A stretch of DNA of 36,244 nucleotides from positions 1-36,244 of the forward strand of contig JAMONX010000082.1 in the NCBI GenBank assembly GCA_027066435.1. The letters are read 5' to 3'. Made by a program: the position numbers and the translations under genes. This document shows positions 3,222-34,245 of the stretch, piece after piece. Source of the stretch: Campylobacterales bacterium. GTDB lineage: Bacteria; Campylobacterota; Campylobacteria; Campylobacterales; QNZT01. Position 1 is the first letter of the stretch. Every line of letters begins with the position of its first letter. Under the pieces are notes generated by a model that ran no database searches, was not told the origin of the DNA, and saw nothing but the letters and a program-made list of their open reading frames with translations.

Positions 3222-6200
3222 TTACCACTCCATCTTTTGGTAACTTCTCTCAGATGCACCATCTTTATCTACAGCTTTACCCTGCTCTCCTTTACCTGCC
3301 CAGGAGTCTGCACCTGATGTTATATTTACATTAAAAGATCGTGTGCTTCTTGTACCAAATATATTAAAAATAAGCCAAGGATCTGTTTCAAATGTAATTC
3401 TATCTACATATGGAAATTTAGGTATACTCATTTTCATCGTATCTGTACCTTTTTCATCTATCATAAAGCTTGTTGCAGTCATAGTTTCATAGTTATCATA
3501 CCTACTAAAATTTTTAGTATTTTTAGGTTTAGTATCTCTAAATACATCTCTACTAGTATCATATTTGCCTTTTGGAATTATCCTCCAAAAGATTCCATTT
3601 TCACTCTCTCTACCTTTCGCTAATTCAAATACATTCCTATCACAATTTTTACAATAGACCTCTTGATAAACAGAGATATTATGCTTACTTCCAGTGCCTG
3701 TATAATTTGGGATATTCACTCTCCCATAATAAAAATCTGATGATTCATCAACTGCTTGAACGCCTAACACTCCTTCACTATTGGTTGCATTAATTTGACT
3801 GATAGTAAAATTCATTGGATTTTTGGCAATAGTTCTATTTCTATCAAAATTTATACTCATTGATACATTAGCTTCTCCATCAATAAATTTATCTTTTTTT
3901 ATCACATAGGTTACCTGCCTAGGAGTAGATGGAATAAAATTATATACACCATTTAGAATAGATCCATCTGCTAATACCAGTTTATTTAAATTATTTCCAG
4001 TTGTGTTAAAATCTAGAGATATATTTACATCTTTGGAATAACAAGTATCACTATAGTTTTTTGTTACACTTCCACCCCCATCAGTTGCTACAATGCTCAA
4101 CTCAAGCAATGCACCCATCTGTGTTGTATTTTCATCAGATGCATAGAAGGTAAATATCCCTGCCCCATCTTGAAGACTTGCTTGTTTAAATACAAATTGA
4201 CTTGCAGTAAACATTATAGTTGTATTTGCTTCACCTATATATCTTTGTAAATCAAGTGTATCATTGCTATCTATCGCTGCAAATTCACTTCCTGCTATTT
4301 CAAAGATATCAAAATCAACTTCACCTACTTCAGAATAGTTTATATCGCTTTTTAAGCCACCATCACTAAAAAATACCGAAGATAAATCAATCGTCCCTGT
4401 CGCACACCCTGACTTTGTTTCATTATGTTCAATTTGAAATGAGACATTATAAGATTCATTGTAGTCACTTGCATTATTATCATCAACACCAACTGCCTTT
4501 ATAGCAAAAGCAAATGGCTCTCCAACTTTACCAATTGCTGGTGTATCGAACACAAAACGATCTGGTCTTATTGCAAATTTTTCTGATAAATTTGTATCAT
4601 ATCTTGTGCCATTTGCATCAAAATATTGTATAGCTACATATGCAACTTTATGTGCAGTAGAAATTTTACCAAATTCTATATCAGTAATGTTTTTATCTGT
4701 TAAATTTACATCCCTCCAAGTTGTAAGTTGGTTAGAACCTGAGTATATCGAAGCTTCTACTATAGAGTAGATGCTACTAGCATACCCTGTACCATTTGCA
4801 TCTATAGAAGCAATACTCAAATTTATATCTTTGTTTACAATCTTCGTTTTTATAACTGGACTACTTATACTCTCATCAATATCCCAAGCTCCAAACAAAT
4901 TTTTATCAGCATCGATATTTATCATATAATCTTCAATTTCACCATCACTTGCAGCTCCTGTAGCATTTAGATCTGTATCTGAGCTATATCTAAATCTCGC
5001 ATAAGTTACACCATCTTTTGCACCTAAAGGGACTATAATATTTGTAAGATTGACAGTTCCAGATGAACCATTTGTGTTTTTTGATATCTGTTCACTATTT
5101 GAAAAATTTCCATCTCTGTCAAAATCAATCCAAGCATTTAAAACTCCATTTCCTACAGTTTTGATATCTAAATTTATTTTACTTCCTACTTTTATTGTTG
5201 CTCCTTGAAATGATGTGCTATTCATACTTACACCATCTTCTTCAACTCCATCACCAGTTGCTGTCAATGTCGGTTGCCCATCATCTTCACTATTGTTAAT
5301 ATCAGGCGGTAATACACCTAAATATATTGTAGCTCCAGTGGAAGGAAGCTGATGTCTTGGTCCATCATCAGATAATAAAGTTCTATAATTACCCATAGCC
5401 GTTCCATCTCCAATTGACTTATTACCATCATCTGGTGCATCTCCAAAATCTAAAAGAATCATATTATCTGCGAACATAACACCATCATTTAAAGATGTGT
5501 GTCTAGGCTTTGAAAAAGAGACAGCAGTAGGATCAATAATACCTGAGGGATTGGTAACATCTATACGATAAACCTCACCATTTGGTCTTCCTACTCCATT
5601 GGCATACAAATAATAATAACCATCTTTTGTAAAAAATGACCCACCAAATACTCTCTGTTTTAATTCTATTCCAACAAGAGCAGGATGACCAGGAGGCAGC
5701 ACACCCGTACTTCCCATTGTCCCCCCAGAGTGGCTATTACTTATTTTTGTATCACCCAGATCTTCAACCGTCCCTGTTTTTGGATTAATTCGCAATAAAG
5801 AGTGTGTCCCTTTTCCATTAATAACCGTATACAACATGTCATCTTTTGGATTAAATGCCCAATCAGTACTATAAACTGTTTTAGTAATAAGAATATTTGT
5901 ACTTTTAACTAGCAGTAGAGAATCTGCAGTTAAATAAGTTGGAGAGTTAGGATCTAAATCAATTATAGACATAAATGGTTGTCCATGCATATTTAAATAT
6001 AATTTACCATCTTTATCTATATCTCCAGCATATGAAAATATATTTAAATTTGGAATTGGCCCATAATCTGTAGTAACCCAATTTCCAGAGCTATCTTTTC
6101 CTACTCTAATAATATATCCATCTGCTGAAAATTCACCACGCCTTGGAGCAGAACCCCAAAAATAACCATCTTTGACATTATACCCAAGACCATTTACATG

Positions 6201-6746
6201 ATACGCACTAGGAGTTATATTATCTTGTTGTTTAGTCAATTTTCCAGTAACTAAATCTAAAGAATAAACATCTGAAGGTTTGTTTTGGAATAGATAAGCT
6301 TTTTCTCTATCTGCAACGGTTAGTGGATTAACATCATCTTTAAAATTTCCAAAATTCAAATTATTTTCACTAGGATTAATACCACTTAATTTTACTGAAA
6401 TATAATTTGAACTAGAAGATGACCAACCAGCAGGATCACTTGAAACACTACAACTACTACTATTTGTCTCATCTTCAATAATAGTATATGGACCAAAACC
6501 TGGAAAATTAAATTCATAATAACCTGTTGCATTTGAGGTTGTTATGTTAAAAGTTTGTCTAAGAATATTATGTTTACAAAGTTTAATAATACTCTTCTCT
6601 CCAGTTCCACTCTCTCCCGCATCTACTTGCTGATTTCTATCTTTATCATTATAGACATACCCACTCAAACTTCCTCCATATATTGTTGAAGGTATAAAAG
6701 TAAAAAATAAAACCCCAAATATAAAATTTTTTACAAAATTTCTCAT
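3222..6746 (-). CDS. Large exported protein: Sdr-B-like, DUF6923-like and GEVED-like domains (paralogue 1)
   Basis: A 1174-aa protein with a signal peptide (hydrophobic residues about 8-24, IPSTIYGGS). Residues about 27-135 resemble a Sdr-B or carboxypeptidase-like beta-sandwich (LSGYVYNDKDRN, then a YYEF strand). Residues about 145-430 form a propeller-like region with repeated readout motifs (YSLDLVTGKL, RINPKTGTVEDL, EVYRIDVTNPSG), as in DUF6923. Residues about 432-612 form a GEVED-type domain (LDFGDAPDD, LNAWIDFDRDGNFS, ARFRYSSD, GEIEDYMI). The remaining 560 residues include FAIRPDRFVFD and YQEVYCKNC, reminiscent of MshQ/DUF6701 regions, and end in SYQKMEW. No sortase or autotransporter signal is visible. 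Likely surface-exposed or secreted; function unknown. A GGGAG ribosome site precedes the ATG. The next gene upstream is a close paralogue. Confidence 0.75.
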   Translation of the reverse strand: MRNFVKNFIFGVLFFTFIPSTIYGGSLSGYVYNDKDRNQQVDAGESGTGEKSIIKLCKHNILRQTFNITTSNATGYYEFNFPGFGPYTIIEDETNSSSCSVSSDPAGWSSSSSNYISVKLSGINPSENNLNFGNFKDDVNPLTVADREKAYLFQNKPSDVYSLDLVTGKLTKQQDNITPSAYHVNGLGYNVKDGYFWGSAPRRGEFSADGYIIRVGKDSSGNWVTTDYGPIPNLNIFSYAGDIDKDGKLYLNMHGQPFMSIIDLDPNSPTYLTADSLLLVKSTNILITKTVYSTDWAFNPKDDMLYTVINGKGTHSLLRINPKTGTVEDLGDTKISNSHSGGTMGSTGVLPPGHPALVGIELKQRVFGGSFFTKDGYYYLYANGVGRPNGEVYRIDVTNPSGIIDPTAVSFSKPRHTSLNDGVMFADNMILLDFGDAPDDGNKSIGDGTAMGNYRTLLSDDGPRHQLPSTGATIYLGVLPPDINNSEDDGQPTLTATGDGVEEDGVSMNSTSFQGATIKVGSKINLDIKTVGNGVLNAWIDFDRDGNFSNSEQISKNTNGSSGTVNLTNIIVPLGAKDGVTYARFRYSSDTDLNATGAASDGEIEDYMINIDADKNLFGAWDIDESISSPVIKTKIVNKDINLSIASIDANGTGYASSIYSIVEASIYSGSNQLTTWRDVNLTDKNITDIEFGKISTAHKVAYVAIQYFDANGTRYDTNLSEKFAIRPDRFVFDTPAIGKVGEPFAFAIKAVGVDDNNASDYNESYNVSFQIEHNETKSGCATGTIDLSSVFFSDGGLKSDINYSEVGEVDFDIFEIAGSEFAAIDSNDTLDLQRYIGEANTTIMFTASQFVFKQASLQDGAGIFTFYASDENTTQMGALLELSIVATDGGGSVTKNYSDTCYSKDVNISLDFNTTGNNLNKLVLADGSILNGVYNFIPSTPRQVTYVIKKDKFIDGEANVSMSINFDRNRTIAKNPMNFTISQINATNSEGVLGVQAVDESSDFYYGRVNIPNYTGTGSKHNISVYQEVYCKNCDRNVFELAKGRESENGIFWRIIPKGKYDTSRDVFRDTKPKNTKNFSRYDNYETMTATSFMIDEKGTDTMKMSIPKFPYVDRITFETDPWLIFNIFGTRSTRSFNVNITSGADSWAGKGEQGKAVDKDGASERSYQKMEW

Positions 6747-6819: not shown

Positions 6820-9800
6820 TCACCATTCCATTTTTTGATAACTTCTTTTAGATGCACTGTCATCTATCGTTTTACCCTGCTCTCCTTTTCCTGCCCATGT
6901 ATTTGCATCTGATGTTATATTTATATTAAAAGACTGTTGTGTATTTGTACCAAATATATTAAAAATAAGCCATGGTTCTGTTTCAAATGTAACTCTATCT
7001 AGATATGGATATTGTGACATATTAACCCTCATCATGTCTACACCCTTTTTATCAATCACAAAGCTTGCAGCCGTCATAGTTTCATAGTTGTTATAATAAG
7101 TAAAATCTTTATTGTTTTTAGGTTTAGCATTTTTATATACATTTTTACTGTTGTCATATTTACCTACTGGAATAATCCTCCAAAAAATTCCATCTTCACT
7201 CTCTCTACCACCTGCTAATTCAAATGTACTTCTATTACAATTTCTACAATATACCTCTTGATAAACAGAAATATTATGTTCTCTTCCAACACCCGTATAG
7301 TTTGGTATATGTACCCTTCCATAATAAAAGTCTAATGATTTAGTACCTGATGGCACGATAGCTCCACTAACCCCATCACTGTTATTTGCGTCTATACTAT
7401 TAACATAAAAATTCATAGGGTTTTTGGCTACTGATTTGTTTCTATCAAAATTTATATACATAGACACATTAGCCTCTCCAGAGATAAATCTTGTTCGGTT
7501 TATATCAAATTCAATTTTTGCATTAGATACAGGAACACTAAAATGATATTTATCTTTATACATATTAAAAGCATCTACCACTATCATATTTTCTAAAATA
7601 TTTCCTGTAGTATTAAAATCAATAAATAAATTTGTATCTTCAGAGTAACAAGAATCACTATAATTTGTTGTTACGCTTCCACTCCCATCAACTGCTAAAA
7701 CATTTACCTTAAGTAAAGCACCCATACTTGTTATATTTGATTCAGCGGCATAGTAAGTAAACACTCCTGCACCATTTGAAAGTGACCAATTTTTAAAATG
7801 AAAATGACTTGCTGTAAACTTTACTGTTGTATTTGCTTTATCTATATACCTTAATGAATCACTAGTATCATTTGCATCTACTATAGCAAATTCACTTCCT
7901 GCTATTTCGGATATATTAAAATCAACTTTTCCTACTTCAGAATAATTAATATCACTTTTTAAACTACCATTGTTAAAAGATACTGAAGATAAATCAATCA
8001 CACCCGTTGCACACCCTGATTTTGTTTCATTGTGTTCAATTTGAAATGAAACATTGTAAGACTCATTATAATTTGTTGTATTAGATTCATTTCCATCAAT
8101 TGCTTTTACGGCAAAAACAAATGGCTCTCCAACTTTACCAATTGCTGATGGAAAATCAAATACAAAACGATCTGGTCTTATAGCAAATTTCTCTGATAAA
8201 TTTGTATCTTTTGTTCCATTTGCATCACCATATTTTATTGCTACAAATGCTTCTGGATGAGCAGTTGAAATTTTACCAAACTCAATATCTGTAATATTTT
8301 TATCTGTTAAGTTTACATCTTTCCAATCTGTTAATTTATTTGAATTTGCATATATTGCTGCTTTTACTATAGGGTATACATTGCTATACCAACTACCATT
8401 TGCATCTATAGAGGCGATACTTAAGTTTATATCTTTATTTACAATTTTAGTTTTTATAACTTGGTTATTTTTATCTTCATCTACATCCCAAACTCCAAAC
8501 AAATTTCCAACTTTTATATTTATCATATAATCTTCTACTTCACCATCACTTGCAGCTCCCGTAGAATTCAGATCAACATCTGTGCTATATCTAAATCTTG
8601 CATAAGTCACTCCCATTTTAGCATCTGAAGGTACTGCTATGTTTGAAAGGGTGATAGTTCCAGATGAACCATTTTCATTATTTGCTATCTGCTCAGCTAT
8701 TGAAAAATTACCATCACTATTAAAATCAATCCAAGCATTTAAAACTCCATTCCCCACAGTTTTGATATCTAACTTTATTTTACTTCCAGCATTTATAGAT
8801 GCTCCTTGAAACGATGCACTCTTCATATTTACACCATCCTCTTCAGGTCCATCACCACTCGCTGTAATTGACGGATTACCATCACTACTGTTAAGATCAG
8901 GAGATAATACCCCTAAATAAATTGTAGCCCCAGTAGAGGGGATTTGATGTCTAGGCCCATCATCTGAAAGCATAGTTTTATAATTACCAGTCGCTGTACC
9001 ATCACCTGCTGTTGCAGAACTTCCATCTGGTGCATCACCAAAATCTAAAAAAATCGTATTATCTGCAAACATAACACCATCATTTAAAGAGGTATGTCTA
9101 GGTTTTGAAAAGAGTACTGCTGTTGGGTCAATTACACCTGATGGGTTAGAAACATCGATACGAAATACTTCACCTGTTTTTCTATTAACACCATTGTCAT
9201 AAAGATAATAAAAACCATCTCCAGTAAAAAATGACCCTCCAAATACACGAGTTTTAATTGTAGATAGTCTTAGCTCCGCATGCCATATATCATCAGGAAT
9301 CGCACCTACACCATCCCCCATATAGGTTCCTCCAGTTAAGCTATTGCTTATTCTAGTATCCCCTAAATTTTCAACAACAGCGGTTTTGGGATTTATCCTA
9401 TATAAGTAGTGTACACCCTTACCATTGTTAACTGTATAAAGCATATTATCTATGGGATTAACCGCCCAATCTGTACTTTTAAAAAAAGCTATAGAGTTAT
9501 TTTTATCATCAACAAAATTAAAACTAGTTGCCGTTAAATATGTAGATGAGTTTGGATCAAGATTAACTACATAGACATCATCACCAGCACTAGAAACAGA
9601 ATATTTTTTTAGATACAAGATTCCATTATCATCTATATCTCCAGAATAAGAGTGGATATCTAAGCCAGGTATAGGGCCATAATGTGTTTCTGTCCAATCA
9701 GTGCCTGCACTATTTTTTCCCACTCTTGAAATATACCCATCTTTTGTTGGTGTAGAACCCCAGAAAAACCCATCTTTTGGGTTATATCCTAATGCATTTA

Positions 9801-10350
9801 CATGATAACTTGCATCCGTATTTACATTATCTTTAATTTTATTTAGCTTTCCAGTTACAAGATCCAAAGTATATATATCAGAAGGTCTATTTTGAAACAG
9901 ATAAGCTTTTTTTCTATCTTCAACACTAAGAGCTTTATGATTATCCTTAAAAATAGCAAAATTTAGATTGGATTTATCAACTCCATCCATTTTAATCTTA
10001 ATATAATTTGAACTAGCAGAAGACCATCCCGCAGGATTACTAGAAGTTGTACAGTTGCTTGTATTTGTCTCATCTTTAATAATAGTAAAGTTTGCATTAT
10101 TAAAAACATTAAACTCATATTTGCCTGATGAATCAGTTTTATAAGTATCAATGGGAACAGGATTGAAACCACGGCACAGTTTAATAACAGTTGGAGGTAC
10201 TGCTGTATTTTCCAAAGGAGCTTTTATCTGATTATGATTTAAATCATCAAACACATACCCACTCAACTTTCCACCCACTCCATACAAAGTTGAAGGTATA
10301 AAAGTTAAAAACAAAAGACCAGATATAAAAAACTTTACAATTTTATCCAT
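6820..10350 (-). CDS. Large exported protein: Sdr-B-like, DUF6923-like and GEVED-like domains (paralogue 2)
   Basis: A 1176-aa paralogue of the downstream gene, colinear over its full length. It has a signal peptide (FFISGLLFLTFIPSTLYG), a first domain starting KLSGYVFDDLNHNQ, a propeller-like middle (YTLDLVTGKL, RINPKTAVVENL, EVFRIDVSNPSG), a GEVED region (LDFGDAPDG, LNAWIDFNSDGNFS, GEVEDYMI), and a C-terminal half with FAIRPDRFVFD, YQEVYCRNC and the same last residues, SYQKMEW. The strong similarity and head-to-tail arrangement, 73 bp apart, indicate a tandem duplication that was kept. AAGGA lies about 7 nt before the ATG. Probably an envelope or surface protein; no enzymatic motif recognised. 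The conserved CxxC in the tail may form a disulfide. Confidence 0.75.
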   Translation of the reverse strand: MDKIVKFFISGLLFLTFIPSTLYGVGGKLSGYVFDDLNHNQIKAPLENTAVPPTVIKLCRGFNPVPIDTYKTDSSGKYEFNVFNNANFTIIKDETNTSNCTTSSNPAGWSSASSNYIKIKMDGVDKSNLNFAIFKDNHKALSVEDRKKAYLFQNRPSDIYTLDLVTGKLNKIKDNVNTDASYHVNALGYNPKDGFFWGSTPTKDGYISRVGKNSAGTDWTETHYGPIPGLDIHSYSGDIDDNGILYLKKYSVSSAGDDVYVVNLDPNSSTYLTATSFNFVDDKNNSIAFFKSTDWAVNPIDNMLYTVNNGKGVHYLYRINPKTAVVENLGDTRISNSLTGGTYMGDGVGAIPDDIWHAELRLSTIKTRVFGGSFFTGDGFYYLYDNGVNRKTGEVFRIDVSNPSGVIDPTAVLFSKPRHTSLNDGVMFADNTIFLDFGDAPDGSSATAGDGTATGNYKTMLSDDGPRHQIPSTGATIYLGVLSPDLNSSDGNPSITASGDGPEEDGVNMKSASFQGASINAGSKIKLDIKTVGNGVLNAWIDFNSDGNFSIAEQIANNENGSSGTITLSNIAVPSDAKMGVTYARFRYSTDVDLNSTGAASDGEVEDYMINIKVGNLFGVWDVDEDKNNQVIKTKIVNKDINLSIASIDANGSWYSNVYPIVKAAIYANSNKLTDWKDVNLTDKNITDIEFGKISTAHPEAFVAIKYGDANGTKDTNLSEKFAIRPDRFVFDFPSAIGKVGEPFVFAVKAIDGNESNTTNYNESYNVSFQIEHNETKSGCATGVIDLSSVSFNNGSLKSDINYSEVGKVDFNISEIAGSEFAIVDANDTSDSLRYIDKANTTVKFTASHFHFKNWSLSNGAGVFTYYAAESNITSMGALLKVNVLAVDGSGSVTTNYSDSCYSEDTNLFIDFNTTGNILENMIVVDAFNMYKDKYHFSVPVSNAKIEFDINRTRFISGEANVSMYINFDRNKSVAKNPMNFYVNSIDANNSDGVSGAIVPSGTKSLDFYYGRVHIPNYTGVGREHNISVYQEVYCRNCNRSTFELAGGRESEDGIFWRIIPVGKYDNSKNVYKNAKPKNNKDFTYYNNYETMTAASFVIDKKGVDMMRVNMSQYPYLDRVTFETEPWLIFNIFGTNTQQSFNINITSDANTWAGKGEQGKTIDDSASKRSYQKMEW

Positions 10351-27124: not shown

Positions 27125-28495
27125 ATGGAAAAATTGAAATATTTTTTTAGACCAAAAGATAGTTTTAGTGAAAATGAGTGGATATTTAGATATAAAGTTA
27201 GAGCTTTGCTTATTATATCATTTTGTGTTGGTGTTGGTATTATTCTTTTTGGATTTTATCGTATTTCTTTGGACAATAAGATAGCAGGTATTTCTCAAAT
27301 ATTTTTTGGTGTAATTTTACTATTTGGTTTTTTTATTTTGCGTAATGAAAAAAAGTATTATCGAATTTTAGCTATGATTTTTTTCATTCTGGCTTTTATA
27401 CTTTTAGTTATTATCTTCTTTTTTGTACCTCAAAATTCTGCTCGTATATTGTGGATGGTAGCTCTTTTGGTATTTGTATTTTTTTTGCTTGATAAGAGTG
27501 GAGGAGTACTCTTTTTATCTCTATTTTTACTTTTTATGTTTTATCTTATTTTTACTGATTATCCATACAGTGTTATAGAATTTATAACATTTTTTTCAAC
27601 TATTCTCACAACTTCACTGATACTTTTTGCATATGAAAAAGTTAAAATAAGAGAGAAAGAGCGACTTCTATCTTATAATGAAACTTTACAAAAAGAGATA
27701 GATAAGCAGACAAAAGAGTTAAATATTTTAAATGAGGGGCTTGAATATAGAGTTCAAGAAGAGTTAGATAAGAGATTAGAGCAGGAGCAAATGTTACTTC
27801 ATCAATGTCGTCTAGCTAGTATGGGTGAAATGATTGATTCTATTGCTCATCAATGGAGGCAGCCACTGATGAATATAAATGCAATTTTGATGAATATAGA
27901 TAGAGCTGTAGAGATGAAAAAAGATGAAGTTTTTATAGAAAGCAAAATTGATGAAGCAGCATCTTTAACTTCACATATGTCACAAACTATTGAAGATTTT
28001 AGAGATATATTTAAGATAAAAAAAGAGATGACAAAATTTTATATTACGGATGTAATTTATGATGTTAAGATGCTGATGAAAAACAGCTTAAAAGATATAG
28101 AGGTAAATTTTGAAAAAGAGTCAAACATAAGTATTATAAGTTATAAAAGTGAATTTATGCAGGTTATTATAATTCTTTTAAATAATGCTTTAGAGATTTT
28201 AAATGCGAGAGAGATTAAAGATAAGAGGATTAATATTTTGTTAAAAGAGTTTGATAAAGATATTTTTTTATCTATAGAAGATAATGCAGGGGGCATAGAT
28301 ACATCTGTGATTGAGCAGATTTTTAATCCATATTTTACAACTAAAAATAGATCAGGCGGTACGGGATTAGGTCTGTATATAGCAAAAATTATAATAGAGC
28401 ATAATATGAAAGGCTATATAAATGTTAGAAATAGTACAAATGGTGCAATTTTTACTATAAAAATCAAAAAGGAGATGCATGAGAGCAATACTTGA
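27125..28495 (+). CDS. Membrane sensor histidine kinase
   Basis: A 456-aa sensor kinase. Six hydrophobic segments lie at about residues 27-48, 53-72, 80-101, 107-122, 127-144 and 150-170, with almost no periplasmic loop, so the signal is probably sensed within or at the membrane. A coiled coil (about 172-225) leads to the H-box AHQWRQPLMN with His242. The ATPase domain shows an N box (NNALEIL), G1 (DNAGGID), F box (NPYFTTK) and G2 (GGTGLGLYIAK). All catalytic motifs are intact. It overlaps the response regulator gene by 17 bp, so the two are a cognate pair. The ligand is unknown; it has no PAS, HAMP or Cache domain. Confidence 0.9.
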   Translation: MEKLKYFFRPKDSFSENEWIFRYKVRALLIISFCVGVGIILFGFYRISLDNKIAGISQIFFGVILLFGFFILRNEKKYYRILAMIFFILAFILLVIIFFFVPQNSARILWMVALLVFVFFLLDKSGGVLFLSLFLLFMFYLIFTDYPYSVIEFITFFSTILTTSLILFAYEKVKIREKERLLSYNETLQKEIDKQTKELNILNEGLEYRVQEELDKRLEQEQMLLHQCRLASMGEMIDSIAHQWRQPLMNINAILMNIDRAVEMKKDEVFIESKIDEAASLTSHMSQTIEDFRDIFKIKKEMTKFYITDVIYDVKMLMKNSLKDIEVNFEKESNISIISYKSEFMQVIIILLNNALEILNAREIKDKRINILLKEFDKDIFLSIEDNAGGIDTSVIEQIFNPYFTTKNRSGGTGLGLYIAKIIIEHNMKGYINVRNSTNGAIFTIKIKKEMHESNT

Positions 28496-29162
28496 AAACT
28501 ATACAATTTTATATGTTGAAGATGAGTTAGATGTACAAGCTAATATGAGTGAATACTTAAGAAGTTATTTTAAAAAAGTATATCTTGCTACAAATGGTAA
28601 AGAGGCACTTTTGCTTTATGAAAAATTTTCTCCTGATGTACTTTTACTTGATATTAATATTCCAGATGTAGATGGTCTTAGTGTAGCAAAAGAGATTCGA
28701 AAAAAAGATAAAGATATTAGAATAATTATGTTAACAGCACATACAGATGAAGAGAAACTTTTAAAAGCTCTTGACTTAAAGCTTACAAAATATCTTGTAA
28801 AACCAGTTAGTCCAAAAGATTTTAAAAAAGCTTTATCAATTTTAGCAAAAGAGTTACTAGAGTCTAGAAACCTACTAGTTCCTTTAGATGAACACCATAT
28901 TTGGAGCAAACCCACCATGCAACTTTTATATATCAATAAAGAGATAGAGTTGACACAAAAAGAGAGACTGCTTTTAAGCCTTTTGATAGATAAAAGAGGT
29001 TTTTGTGTAACTTATGCTGATATCATGGCTGTTGTATGGGAAGATAAGTTTGATAAAGAGGTATCTATAGATTCTGTAAAATCCCAAATAAGTCTTTTAA
29101 GGAAAAAACTACCTAAAAATCTTATAGAAAATGTATATGGAAAAGGGTATACACTAAAATAA
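28479..29162 (+). CDS. OmpR/PhoB-family response regulator
   Basis: A 227-aa DNA-binding response regulator. The receiver domain (residues about 8-122) has the acidic cluster VEDE, phospho-acceptor Asp58 (LLLDINIP), Thr in IMLTAH and Lys in YLVKP. The C-terminal winged helix (about 135-227) includes ELTQKERLLLSLLI, SIDSVKSQISLLRKKL and the terminal GKGYTLK. AGGAG lies 7 nt before the ATG, inside the kinase gene. Family members bind direct repeats about 10-11 bp apart. Such repeats begin one base after this gene's stop codon, in front of the lipoprotein gene. Confidence 0.92.
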   Translation: MRAILENYTILYVEDELDVQANMSEYLRSYFKKVYLATNGKEALLLYEKFSPDVLLLDINIPDVDGLSVAKEIRKKDKDIRIIMLTAHTDEEKLLKALDLKLTKYLVKPVSPKDFKKALSILAKELLESRNLLVPLDEHHIWSKPTMQLLYINKEIELTQKERLLLSLLIDKRGFCVTYADIMAVVWEDKFDKEVSIDSVKSQISLLRKKLPKNLIENVYGKGYTLK

Positions 29163-29193
29163 ATCACACTTCATCACACTTTTTTATTATACT
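29163..29193 (+). promoter_or_regulatory. Direct-repeat operator and promoter, lipoprotein gene 1
   Basis: ATCACACTTCATCACACT at 29163-29180 contains two TCACACT units with a 10-bp period, followed 7 nt later by the -10 box TATACT (29188-29193). The repeats occupy the -35 position, as for OmpR/PhoB-type activators. The identical 18-mer with the same spacing is at 31004-31021. Confidence 0.7.
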
Positions 29194-29215
29194 ACCTAAA
29201 AAAAGGATTTAATTT

Positions 29216-30958
29216 ATGAAAATAAAATACTCACTTATGATAGCTTCAATGCTTTTAGTTTTTGGTGGTTGTGGTGGAGATAGTGGTACTCCAAGTAGTG
29301 AAAGTGATACTAAAACAGGTTTTGTAGGAGATGGTTATATAGAAGGTGCTTATGTCTGTCATGATAGTAACTCTAATATGAGTTGCTTAGATGAGACTTA
29401 TGCTACAACTTTGGCTGATGGTAGTTTTACACTAAGTAATTTTGATTCAACAAAAGAGCTGTTAGCTCAAATTCCAGTAGGGTCTATAGATCATGGGCCG
29501 TTTGCTGATGGTAGCACTTCTTCTCGTACTATCTCTACTGAAGTTTTATACTACTATCCTGCAAATGGTTCAAATGCAAATGATAAAGTCTTTATAAGCC
29601 CCATAAGTGCTCTAATTTCGGCACAGATGAAAGCTATGCCTGCACTATCTTTAAGTGATGCTAAAAATATAATAAGCTCAAACATAGGAGTTTCTAACAG
29701 CCTAGAGATACTTGATAACTATTTAGAAAAAAATTCAACTCAAAGTAACACTATACATCAGATAGCAGAAGTTATTCACTCTTCGATAGAGTCATCTTCT
29801 GCTCAACAAACATCAACTTATGCTAATACTATAGACTATATACTTGGTGAGTTAAATGATATATCTGCAGAAATTTTAGATGCAAATAGTTCAGATTTTA
29901 ATGCATCAAATCATATAGTAATAGCAACACCAAAAGCGGGTAATAATACACCACTTATATATACTCCTGTTGCAGATATTTGTGCTGATTTAACAAACAA
30001 AGAGTATTTTGCTTTTGAAGATTGGGATAGCAATCAAGGAGGTGGTTATATTGAAAAAAGAGAGTTAAAAAATATTTTTATAGACCAAAACGATATTTTA
30101 CAGATAAAAAATGAGGTATATAACTCAGGATGGAGCATAAATACCCAACAAACTACATTTGAACAAAACTATCTAAATAATATAGACGAAACTATAATCA
30201 ATATGGCTCAGGTAAACTCTACTAATTATACTAAACCTATGCATGATGTACCCCTTCCTGCTCAAAAAATATCTTGTAGTGGATCAAGTGCTATTTTTAA
30301 TGCAAATGGATTTAAATATAAACTTATAGCATCACAGGCAGACATAAATGGTATAACTGGTACAAATTTACCATATGGTAGTACTATAGGATCTATCATA
30401 AACCCTATTACCTTTGATCCTGGAGACAAAATCTACAAAATACTGGCTATTATTCAAGATGATATATATGGTGTTGATAACAATGAAATAGTACATAATG
30501 ATACAACTTTCACACCTATGAACAATAGTGCAAATATCTCTTCAATGGTTCAATCAACCAATACAAGTTTTTTGGTAGAATTTCAAGATAGCAATAATTA
30601 TACAAAGCTAAAACTAGTTACTACAGCAAGTAGCCAAAATAACGGTGTAGTAAATGTAATTAGAGTAGAAAACTCTAACATAACCTCCTCAACAACAAAA
30701 ACTTATCATGTAGAGGTACATAACTCTCATCCATTTTTTGTAGTAGAAAATTACAAGGGAGTTGGATTTGATCTTTTTCTTGGAAAAGTTGATGCCATAG
30801 ATAGTAGTAATTTTGTCTATGGGTCAATAATAAGAACAGGATTGAGCTTCTATTTTACACAAGGTGGGATTCAAGCTGGAGATATTTTAGATGATATTTT
30901 ATTAAACCAATCTGCAAAAAATAGAGTTTTATCAGCTAAAAATATAACTCATCCATAA
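29216..30958 (+). CDS. Large lipoprotein of unknown function
   Basis: A 580-aa protein with a lipoprotein signal peptide (MKIKYSLMIASMLLVFGGC, lipidated Cys at residue 19) followed by a Gly/Ser/Thr/Asp-rich linker. Residues about 38-75 (GYIEGAYVCHDSNSNMSC, then LADGSFTLSNF) resemble a small carboxypeptidase-regulatory-like beta-sandwich seen near the N-terminus of some bacterial surface lipoproteins. The rest I do not recognise; it is Asn/Ser-rich with one DWDSNQGGGYIEKREL stretch. AAAGGA precedes the ATG. It follows the response regulator and has its own direct-repeat promoter, so it is probably a target of that regulator. It ends at a 14-bp hairpin. Confidence 0.72.
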   Translation: MKIKYSLMIASMLLVFGGCGGDSGTPSSESDTKTGFVGDGYIEGAYVCHDSNSNMSCLDETYATTLADGSFTLSNFDSTKELLAQIPVGSIDHGPFADGSTSSRTISTEVLYYYPANGSNANDKVFISPISALISAQMKAMPALSLSDAKNIISSNIGVSNSLEILDNYLEKNSTQSNTIHQIAEVIHSSIESSSAQQTSTYANTIDYILGELNDISAEILDANSSDFNASNHIVIATPKAGNNTPLIYTPVADICADLTNKEYFAFEDWDSNQGGGYIEKRELKNIFIDQNDILQIKNEVYNSGWSINTQQTTFEQNYLNNIDETIINMAQVNSTNYTKPMHDVPLPAQKISCSGSSAIFNANGFKYKLIASQADINGITGTNLPYGSTIGSIINPITFDPGDKIYKILAIIQDDIYGVDNNEIVHNDTTFTPMNNSANISSMVQSTNTSFLVEFQDSNNYTKLKLVTTASSQNNGVVNVIRVENSNITSSTTKTYHVEVHNSHPFFVVENYKGVGFDLFLGKVDAIDSSNFVYGSIIRTGLSFYFTQGGIQAGDILDDILLNQSAKNRVLSAKNITHP

Positions 30959-30994
30959 AAATTTAGTGAGTATATTTAATTACTCACTAAATTT
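30959..30994 (+). terminator. Hairpin after lipoprotein gene 1
   Basis: A perfect 14-bp inverted repeat, AAATTTAGTGAGTA (30959-30972) and TACTCACTAAATTT (30981-30994) with an 8-nt loop, begins directly after the stop codon. Only a weak T-stretch follows. It separates the first lipoprotein transcript from the promoter of the second. Confidence 0.6.
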
Positions 30995-31003
30995 CAGTTT
31001 GTC

Positions 31004-31034
31004 ATCACACTTCATCACACTCTTTTGTTAAGAT
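31004..31034 (+). promoter_or_regulatory. Direct-repeat operator and promoter, lipoprotein gene 2
   Basis: ATCACACTTCATCACACT at 31004-31021 is identical to the site at 29163, and 7 nt later TAAGAT (31029-31034) occupies the same place as TATACT in the first promoter. The -10 match is poor, which fits dependence on an activator. The start codon at 31099 leaves a leader of about 58 nt. Confidence 0.65.
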
Positions 31035-31098
31035 TTTATATCATTGATATAAAAGAATCTAACTTTTGTCAAATGAAATCAATTTCAAAGGATACAGG

Positions 31099-34000
31099 AT
31101 GAGAGTAATAACCGCATTATCACTCGTGACTATAACTATGTTATATTTTAGTGGATGTGGTGGAGAAGAGTCATCTCTACCACCAGAAAAAAAAGCTGAA
31201 ACTGAGGGAATTTCCCAAAGTGAGTATGATGTAAAAATCTGTACAGATAAAAATAGAAGTGATGAGGGGTGTGAGAAAGCAAGAGCTTTTGATCCAAATA
31301 AAACTGTTGCTGTACTCTCTCCTCCAAAAGATATAGGTATAGGAACTACTAGTTATTTTGATGGAGATAAATTTATCGTTGTATCAAAAGATGAAAAGGC
31401 TATATCTCCTTACAATATGTTAACAGAAGGAATTTTAGCATATATAAAAAGTGGCAATGCTTCTTGGTGTGGACCGTGTAGAATGGTTAATAATATTGAA
31501 GATGTAAAAAAACTTTTAGAAGATGAGTTTAAGTTAGATGGCAGTGAGAAACAAAATAAAGCATTTTTGGCTGCTTATAGTTCTAATTTAGATAAATTTG
31601 CTGGCTTGGGTTTTGAAGTCAAAGAGGCACATCAACTATCTATTGAATCTATGGTGGAAAAACTTTTAAATTTCACACAGGTTAATTTATCAAAACTTGC
31701 TCCTTGTGATAGTGACTATACAGGTGGTCCTTGTCCTAGTATAACAGCAGATCAAATAACACTTAGTAATGTAACGGATAAAATACTAAGAATTAGCAAA
31801 GATGAAGCATCACAAAAAGCTTATGAAAAAAGAGATAGAGAGGATAAACTAAAACCATATGAAGAAGTATTTGATAAGTTAGAGTGTAAAGATAATGAAT
31901 CAAAACAGATATTTATGTATGGCATAGCTGATAATTTTAATACAACAAATAGCGAACCAACAAATCCTAAACCAGCTCTATTATCTGTGTTAAATGTCTA
32001 CACTCCATATGGTTATGTTAATCCATATGACTACTTTGCAAGTATAAATAATCCAAATTTCTTTGCAGAAACATTAGACAATTTACCAACAAATTTAACA
32101 CAAGGTATTATAGTCCTAGGGCTAAAAGAGTATGGTTATAGATTTACTGATACACCATCATATCAGGATATATATGAAATAGGCAGTATAGATAATGGAT
32201 TATTTCAAGCCCAAGCTAATAATGCGATAGGAATGGTTAGTGATATCAGAACAAACTGGAATAGCATTAACACAAATATATATTTTAAAGACTTATCACA
32301 AATTGCAAATCCATCAGGACAAAGTTTGCTTACAAGAGTTCAATCAGGACAAAACTATCTTGATATTTTCTTTGGAATAACTACAAATGTAGATTTTATA
32401 GCAGTTGCTGCTTGTACTCCAAAAGAAAAACCAACAGGTATACCAGTACCAGAAATACCAGATAAACTAGAATGCAAAGAGGCTGCGGGTGAAAACTTAG
32501 TGCAAATTTGGGGTGGAAATGGTGATGATTTTGTACTACCAATAGATTCTGCAAATCCACCTTCAATAGTTAGTTCGCATCCATCGTTGATAGCTTATGA
32601 TGAGAGTATTGTTGAGAAGATAGGAGTCTTTGGAGATAGTTTAACTCTGCCTACTAACTCTACTATAACAAAAGCCCAATTACTTGTAAATACAAAAGCA
32701 GCTACTCAAGGCTCTATAAATGACAAGATATTTTTTGGGAATTTTACAGCAAACAAAGCTGGTTTATATAATCCAAACAGCAATGGCATAGCAACTTTAA
32801 ATGGAGGAACAGCACATATTATAGATGATTTATCGCCTATTTACGATACAATTACTCAAAATCAGATAGGAAGTTTTTTATCTCTTTTAAACTCTGGAAT
32901 CTCAAATCTTGATGTAGTTGTAAAAGATCAAACAATAGTTGATAGTGTTAGACTCTCTATGTGTGTTGTAGAAAATCCTAAAGAGGGTGATATAGGTATT
33001 AAGAAAAAATTGGTAAAACAGTACAATAGAGATGGTTTAAATTATGGTATATTTGAGATATCATTTAGTGGTTCACTTCCTGCAAATGAGACTCTTGTAG
33101 TTGAAGATGTAGTACCAAATGGTGCAAATATCACCCATCTTAGTGCTATACCTTGGAATTGTACACCAACACCAACTATATATAGTGGTAGTACAATGAG
33201 TTGTGAATTAACTGGAGCATACTCACCAATACCTCCAATCATATTAACTATGCAGACAAAAGGCGATACTCTAACAAACTGTGCATCTATAACAAAAGGA
33301 GTAGATACTTACTACAACAATAACCAAGAAAATGATAGAAGCTGTGATACGATGACTGCTGATCCAGATCCAGCTGATCCTACACTTCCAGAGAGCTGTA
33401 AAGAGAAAATCCAAATAGATTTAAGCCAAGCTATAACTTGGAAAGATAGTGCTGGGAATCAACCAACTGTACATAATGCAGTTCCATCTGTTTGGGATAA
33501 CTCATATAACTGGTTTAATTTTGCAAAAACATCAAATACAGATCATCTATTAAAATCTGAATTTTGTAGTTGTGGTGGTGGAAGTGTTAAAATCGAAGGA
33601 TTAAAGACAGATAATACAGGATATATTGACCTTAAAAATCTTGGTAGTAATAGTACTGTAAGAATTGTTGAACAGACTCAAAACTCACAAGCAACTATGG
33701 CTAGTTGGGGAAATGTAGCATCTGGTATAGCAAATTTTCCTTATAGTGGTAACGGAGTAAATTATCAATTAGAACTTGGGGTACATAACTATCGTTCTAA
33801 TAGTGGCGGTGCAGTCAAAGGAGTTTTAGAATTTATAGGACATAAAGGAAGATGTAATGATACTGATACTGTAGATAATGGTGGAGGATTTAAACCAATA
33901 GTTTTAGAGGAAGAGAGAATTATCGTATATCCTCCAATTATTAATCCTGGCACAACTACTCCAGGTGATGTTGTTGTTGAACCTATGGGACCACTATCAA

Positions 34001-34245
34001 AAAAGGTTAATGGATCTATAGTTATAGAAAACAATCCTCTACCTATCGTAATATCTGTAGATAGCGATAAAGTAGTTGCCATTGATCCAGATGAGTTTAC
34101 AGGTCCAATTCCTTCAAATCTTGATCCAACAGTTGTTTTTGGATGTAGTGGAGGACACTATAGAGTAGCTTGGTTGGATGAAGGCGGATTTCATTCATAC
34201 ACATCTGATGTTTCTTGCAGTCCAGATTGGAATGTAGCATTTTAA
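31099..34245 (+). CDS. Very large lipoprotein with a WCGPC motif and DUF11-like region
   Basis: A 1048-aa protein from the ATG at 31099, which has AAAGGA 6 nt upstream and starts exactly at the signal peptide (MRVITALSLVTITMLYFSGC, Cys20 lipidated). An in-frame TTG 33 nt earlier would put hydrophilic residues before the signal and lacks a ribosome site. Residues 122-130 read SWCGPCRMV, the thioredoxin active-site pattern, but the surrounding sequence does not show a clear thioredoxin fold. A later section (about 640-750: NETLVVEDVVPNGANITHL, then SCELTGAY) resembles DUF11-type surface repeats, and the tail is Cys- and Gly-rich. Probably envelope-anchored; function unknown. It shares its upstream operator with the preceding lipoprotein gene. 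Confidence 0.72.
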   Translation: MRVITALSLVTITMLYFSGCGGEESSLPPEKKAETEGISQSEYDVKICTDKNRSDEGCEKARAFDPNKTVAVLSPPKDIGIGTTSYFDGDKFIVVSKDEKAISPYNMLTEGILAYIKSGNASWCGPCRMVNNIEDVKKLLEDEFKLDGSEKQNKAFLAAYSSNLDKFAGLGFEVKEAHQLSIESMVEKLLNFTQVNLSKLAPCDSDYTGGPCPSITADQITLSNVTDKILRISKDEASQKAYEKRDREDKLKPYEEVFDKLECKDNESKQIFMYGIADNFNTTNSEPTNPKPALLSVLNVYTPYGYVNPYDYFASINNPNFFAETLDNLPTNLTQGIIVLGLKEYGYRFTDTPSYQDIYEIGSIDNGLFQAQANNAIGMVSDIRTNWNSINTNIYFKDLSQIANPSGQSLLTRVQSGQNYLDIFFGITTNVDFIAVAACTPKEKPTGIPVPEIPDKLECKEAAGENLVQIWGGNGDDFVLPIDSANPPSIVSSHPSLIAYDESIVEKIGVFGDSLTLPTNSTITKAQLLVNTKAATQGSINDKIFFGNFTANKAGLYNPNSNGIATLNGGTAHIIDDLSPIYDTITQNQIGSFLSLLNSGISNLDVVVKDQTIVDSVRLSMCVVENPKEGDIGIKKKLVKQYNRDGLNYGIFEISFSGSLPANETLVVEDVVPNGANITHLSAIPWNCTPTPTIYSGSTMSCELTGAYSPIPPIILTMQTKGDTLTNCASITKGVDTYYNNNQENDRSCDTMTADPDPADPTLPESCKEKIQIDLSQAITWKDSAGNQPTVHNAVPSVWDNSYNWFNFAKTSNTDHLLKSEFCSCGGGSVKIEGLKTDNTGYIDLKNLGSNSTVRIVEQTQNSQATMASWGNVASGIANFPYSGNGVNYQLELGVHNYRSNSGGAVKGVLEFIGHKGRCNDTDTVDNGGGFKPIVLEEERIIVYPPIINPGTTTPGDVVVEPMGPLSKKVNGSIVIENNPLPIVISVDSDKVVAIDPDEFTGPIPSNLDPTVVFGCSGGHYRVAWLDEGGFHSYTSDVSCSPDWNVAF

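Follow-up and report, generated by a model that had tools for sequence, protein, structure and literature searches.

A direct repeat in two putative lipoprotein promoters of a Campylobacterales genome and its association with a neighbouring OmpR/PhoB-type two-component system

A two-component locus with a repeated promoter element

The window, that is, the whole 36,244-nt stretch of Campylobacterales DNA analysed here, is a complete contig (C82) of a 2.44-Mb genome. Four co-directional genes at 27125-34245 encode a histidine kinase, a response regulator and two putative lipoproteins (LP1 and LP2), with a repeated element ahead of each lipoprotein gene:

27125..28495 (+), sensor histidine kinase, 456 aa, with an N-terminal membrane part, HisKA and HATPase_c
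28479..29162 (+), OmpR/PhoB-type response regulator, 227 aa, with Response_reg (including D58) and Trans_reg_C
29164..29180 (+), putative operator 1, TCACACT-TCA-TCACACT, half-sites at 29164-29170 and 29174-29180, about -36 to -20 in the LP1 promoter
29188..29193 (+), -10 hexamer TATACT, 7 nt 3' of operator 1
29216..30958 (+), LP1, putative lipoprotein, 580 aa, signal peptide (...LVFGGCGG)
31005..31021 (+), putative operator 2, TCACACT-TCA-TCACACT, between LP1 and LP2, about -36 to -20 in the LP2 promoter
31029..31034 (+), weak -10-like hexamer TAAGAT, 7 nt 3' of operator 2
31099..34245 (+), LP2, putative large lipoprotein, 1048 aa, signal peptide (...YFSGCGG) and a conserved WCGPC motif

The regulator was assigned to the OmpR/PhoB family because of its domain content, a receiver domain (PF00072, 92.1 bits) followed by a winged helix (PF00486, 53.1 bits against a cut-off of 26.2). 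Residues E14, D15, D58 and K108 are invariant in the alignment, and full-length relatives are found in the PDB (1kgs and 4b09). It is not PhoB itself (TIGR02154, 85.4 bits against a cut-off of 296.2). Its recognition helix (...DSVKSQISLLRKKL) has serine at residue 202. The kinase gene lies directly 5' of the regulator gene and the two reading frames overlap, the arrangement of a cognate pair; its orthologues in relatives (38-88% identity) likewise adjoin the regulator. The kinase matches HATPase_c at 62.4 bits, with a HisKA score under the cut-off of that family.

Searches of Pfam and NCBIfam assigned no function to LP1 or LP2, and LP1 belongs to no Pfam family. Homologues of LP1 were found in G001 and G015 (32-43% identity), and homologues of LP2, about 38% identical and located behind the same motif, in G001, G006, G009 and G015. 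Predicted structures of LP1 (mean pLDDT 34) and LP2 (mean pLDDT 51) were too poor and were set aside, and Foldseek matches of LP2 were discarded (global TM about 0.1). The WCGPC of LP2, a thioredoxin-like active-site pattern near the N terminus, is invariant in all five aligned homologues, despite which LP2 matched no thioredoxin family. Elsewhere in the window, adjacent genes on the reverse strand (3222-6746 and 6820-10350) encode proteins of 1174 and 1176 aa that match GEVED and, weakly, SdrD_B; the pair probably arose by tandem duplication of a surface-protein gene.

The sequence-only reading had held that an 18-bp sequence, ATCACACTTCATCACACT, is identical at 29163-29180 and 31004-31021, that TCACACT is repeated within each copy at a 10-bp period, with TATACT or TAAGAT 7 nt further on, and that the regulator reading frame ends at 29162, directly 5' of the first copy; each point was borne out by direct reading of the sequence. 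The 17-mer core, TCACACTTCATCACACT, occupies 29164-29180 (one base past the regulator stop codon) and 31005-31021, and the second copy reaches further upstream, to TCATCACACT-TCATCACACT. TAAGAT differs from TATAAT at two positions. The genome-wide scan for TCACACT-N3-TCACACT that had been suggested returned exactly two perfect sites in 2.44 Mb, both at this locus, and none with one mismatch in the whole genome. At up to three mismatches the genome-wide counts (100/102) equalled those of a reversed-pattern control (100/102), so that such relaxed matches are noise. A third genome site (G000:C9, TCACCCTCAATCACCCT), which lies in a gene-dense stretch, was also taken as noise, and a literature search with the motif letters matched unrelated papers only. 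The 40-nt flanks of the two copies agree at only 12/40 and 17/40 positions; thus the repeat did not arise by recent copying of a whole promoter.

Distribution and promoter geometry of the motif

In a first scan of 149 relatives, clusters of the motif were seen in other genera. The same kinase-regulator pair adjoins the motif in family f1 (G001, G009 and G015) and, with a regulator only 40-44% identical, in family f8 (G028, G046, G212, G284 and G302); a regulator 75% identical to that of the window was found on a contig (L059) of a Campylobacterales metagenome-assembled genome. A regulator profile (A1), built from six regulators and searched in 399 genomes of the order, set the subfamily cleanly apart, with 13 genomes above 278 bits and the next best protein at 229 bits. 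The motif YACACTTCATYACACT was present in 13 of the 399 genomes (reversed control, 1), comprising 10 of the 13 regulator-carrying genomes versus 3 of the 386 others (Fisher p ~3e-15). Motif-only matches in G327, G274 and G250 overlap coding sequence, are without a -10 box and were taken as chance, as were those in G007 and G036, which lie in or overlap coding sequence and have neither -10 box nor regulator. The three genomes with the regulator only carry diverged sites, namely TTACACTTGATTACCCT-7-TATGAT, TAACACTTCATAACGCT-7-TATAGT and TGACACTTCGTAACACT-7-GATACT.

Family f6 added 14 regulator genomes. There, the motif plus -10 pattern matched 12 of the 16 genomes that carry the regulator and 4 of the remaining 159 (p ~3e-12), while the reversed motif with the -10 pattern had no match. 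Once relaxed and wider searches were included, at least one site was found in 27 of 27 regulator-carrying genomes (25, plus G503 and G479), a figure that rests in part on relaxed matching, as the site of G501 and several in G506, G523 and G475 carry two differences. The motif follows the regulator subfamily through three families of the order, and a site lies within 1.5 kb of 21 of the 27 regulator loci versus 0 of 17 paralogous regulator loci. Two outcomes named beforehand as damaging to the idea, random scatter of the repeat and its absence before orthologous lipoprotein genes, were thus examined and the idea survived, the motif preceding LP1 and LP2 homologues in G001, G006, G009 and G015.

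These data also bear on whether the repeat is without a regulatory role, having arisen by chance or been duplicated neutrally (as a mobile or low-complexity repeat, or with a copied piece of promoter). The element is short and has only two copies in the genome, as such an origin would allow; yet it is kept across three families with diverged flanks and fixed spacing, and even at up to three mismatches only 0.09 matches to the 17-mer are expected in the window, versus two found, both exact. Conservation already contradicts this explanation, to which we attach next to no probability. A mobile or duplicated promoter was rejected likewise, as the flanks are unalignable beyond the repeat and unrelated sequence surrounds the motif in the other genera that have it.

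Three further loci, L200 (G465), L201 (G474) and L202 (G477), carry a convincing operator, -10 box and lipoprotein gene with the regulator below threshold, which may reflect incomplete assembly, a missed orthologue or a lost regulator. At L069 (G121:C20, 9015-9273), a decayed locus that has lost the kinase, regulator and exoprotein genes, an operator with one mismatch and a -10 box still precede a truncated TonB-receptor gene.

The distance to the -10 box is fixed. Among motifs with one difference allowed and no -10 condition, a TATAAT-like hexamer stood 7 nt away in 24 cases, and every other gap (0-24) turned up at most three times; in the relaxed site lists the 7-nt gap was itself a search condition and is therefore not independent evidence. 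The consensus of 35 sites is TNACACT-TCR-TNACACT-YTT-N4-YATAMT, in which base 2 of each half-site is the most variable position. This extends the first reading: the second base is not always C and is C, T, A or G according to the regulator. The -10 box of G001, CATCAT, is weak. Three promoters of one genus (L070 8813-8870; L073 4685-4742 and 8884-8940) carry an extra TATCACACT just 3' of the -10 box, near the expected transcription start, which could be an additional half-site or a leader element.

With its 10-bp period and position at about -36 to -20, the repeat has the form of a direct-repeat operator. A site so placed could serve the same regulator for repression, with the bound protein excluding sigma and blocking RNA polymerase over the -35 region until a signal releases it, and a repressor there would give conserved sites too. 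Occlusion by a repressor, however, would work without a gap of exactly 7 nt to the -10 box, no other -35 sequence is common to the sites, and PceP of Sulfurospirillum, a tested relative whose sites overlap -35, has been interpreted as an activator (PMC7755780); repression is therefore considered unlikely. An activator of the PhoB type, replacing the -35 contact, fits these promoters because of the position of the site, the fixed -10 distance and the lack of another -35 element.

Covariation of the recognition helix with the operator

Base 2 of the downstream half-site covaries with residue 202 of the regulator: serine is paired with C (one G), asparagine with T (one G), phenylalanine or tyrosine with A and the single lysine with C. 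Residue 202 sits in the recognition helix (SVK-S/N/F-xxS). The pattern was spotted by eye first, and a ranking of all variable columns by mutual information against shuffles served as the control for that and for shared ancestry. Residue 202 ranked first of 200 columns among 27 genomes (z 10.6), first of 195 among 20 genomes with relatives collapsed at 75% identity (z 7.3) and first of 193 among 14 genomes collapsed at 60% (z 5.5); the permutation p-values ignore part of the shared ancestry, and the ranking falls short of a full tree-based test. Residue 198 was near the top in two of the three rankings.

Both positions have counterparts in characterized proteins. When aligned on the LR motif, with residues as named in the respective papers, residue 202 falls on Val197 of PhoB, a thymine-contacting residue (PMC3973317), and on Ser216 of Mycobacterium tuberculosis PhoP, a residue located in the major groove of a direct repeat of TCACAGC; residue 198 corresponds to PhoP Asn212, and Ser216 and Asn212 both contact bases (PMC4832192).

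The covariation also weighs on a further explanation, in which TNACACT-TCA-TNACACT is recognized by some other transcription factor or by an alternative sigma factor, the neighbouring two-component genes being either among its targets or bystanders. We infer direct binding by the regulator, and three genomes have sites where the regulator was not detected, both of which leave room for another factor. Against it stand the near-perfect co-occurrence of the sites with the regulator subfamily and not with paralogues, the top covariation falling in the regulator's own recognition helix, the closely spaced direct repeat, an operator type known for this protein family (PMC4832192), and the ordinary -10 box 3' of the sites. 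Recognition by another factor is accordingly regarded as very improbable.

Predicted regulon and proposed mechanism

The gene behind a site nearly always encodes an exported protein, in most cases a lipoprotein, or else is that of the regulator or kinase itself; target starts lie 3' of the -10 box, and nearly all targets have a signal peptide or lipobox. The sites in f1 lie before LP1 and/or LP2 homologues. In f6 the genes behind the sites encode lipoproteins or exported proteins of other kinds, and several genomes have a site before the regulator or kinase gene. In the window no site was found upstream of the kinase-regulator operon, and self-activation is therefore not predicted there. Up to three sites occur in f8: (i) one before the TonB-dependent-receptor gene at the head of the kinase-regulator operon; (ii) another directly after the regulator; (iii) a third ahead of the gene for a large exoprotein with a TPS domain (filamentous-haemagglutinin type), behind which comes a ShlB/FhaC-type transporter.

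The f8 operon (L067 7724-12324 and f8 relatives) runs TonB-dependent receptor, 178-aa exported protein without a Pfam family, kinase and regulator. Since receptor and small exported protein precede the kinase, the receptor could be the signal input for the two-partner-secretion exoprotein, and it may feed its signal to the kinase. A link of f8 to hecAB/irgA of Arcobacter butzleri (PMC2147049) was considered and not established. Taking distribution, targets and covariation further, we hold it an evenly balanced proposal that these genes form an undescribed Campylobacterales two-component subfamily for surface or exported proteins, in which residue 202 (S, N or F/Y) sets base 2 of the half-site (C, T or A) as a one-residue switch that evolved several times, and in which the f8 receptor could provide the signal input.

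The proposal that regulator, operator and targets can be read from one locus is supported by four computational tests, namely co-occurrence, the 7-nt geometry, exported targets and residue-202 covariation. The two repeats are very probably operators of the neighbouring two-component system, whose OmpR/PhoB-type activator would sit over the -35 region as a tandem dimer bound to TNACACT-TCA-TNACACT and switch on a small, mostly locus-bound surface-protein regulon. Under the proposed mechanism, an envelope or environmental signal would lead the kinase (27125-28495) to phosphorylate the regulator (28479-29162) at D58; the winged-helix domains would then bind head-to-tail to the pair of TNACACT half-sites, which lie at about -36 to -20 with a 10-bp spacing, and the bound regulator would stand in for a -35 element and recruit RNA polymerase to the -10 box exactly 7 nt downstream. 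The predicted outcome in the window is that LP1 and LP2, putative surface lipoproteins, are switched on. In relatives, the exported proteins turned on by the same regulator-operator pair would be either different lipoproteins or a TonB-dependent receptor together with a two-partner-secretion exoprotein and the transporter of the latter; the regulator would also activate its own gene in several genomes.

Among known systems, PceP/PceS (TCS2) of Sulfurospirillum is likewise a Campylobacterota two-component system with an OmpR-family regulator, a direct repeat overlapping -35 before a sigma-70-type -10 box and targets clustered round the regulator locus (PMC7755780). PceP binding was shown by gel shift (PMC7755780). 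Compared by description, the two differ in consensus (CTATW-N17-CTATW versus TNACACT-N3-TNACACT here) and in function, since PceP controls tetrachloroethene respiration, not surface lipoproteins. DccRS of Campylobacter jejuni, likened by description too, has an OmpR-like regulator that increases the expression, at the level of transcription, of a few genes encoding putative periplasmic and membrane proteins (PMC9449129). PhoP of M. tuberculosis recognizes direct repeats of TCACAGC, close to TCACACT (PMC4832192), but with a 4-bp spacer (11-bp period) rather than 3 bp (10-bp period), and it belongs to an unrelated organism and regulon; the similarity of the half-sites may be convergent. Escherichia coli PhoB shares the receiver plus winged-helix architecture and binds direct repeats at -35 as a tandem dimer, as would the window regulator, whereas the pho box has another half-site and the window locus is without phosphate genes.

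To our knowledge, dozens of OmpR-type regulators occur in Campylobacterota, with few operators known. The system is of an ordinary kind but has unusually complete sequence evidence, in that regulator, operator, promoter geometry and targets were all obtained from DNA sequence, and a natural specificity series. This series of helix-operator pairs makes DNA specificity in the OmpR/PhoB family directly testable, and the -10-anchored motif is usable as a finder of unannotated surface lipoproteins.

Multiple copies were also observed at single loci. L195 (G527:C274, 2643-6058) carries five near-identical copies of operator plus -10 box (TCACACTTCCTAACACT-ctttggt-TATACT) within 3.4 kb, most preceding short exported proteins and one preceding a fragment that resembles an Rhs C-terminal core, and L132/L204 (G367:C86) carries three operator copies over 12 kb.
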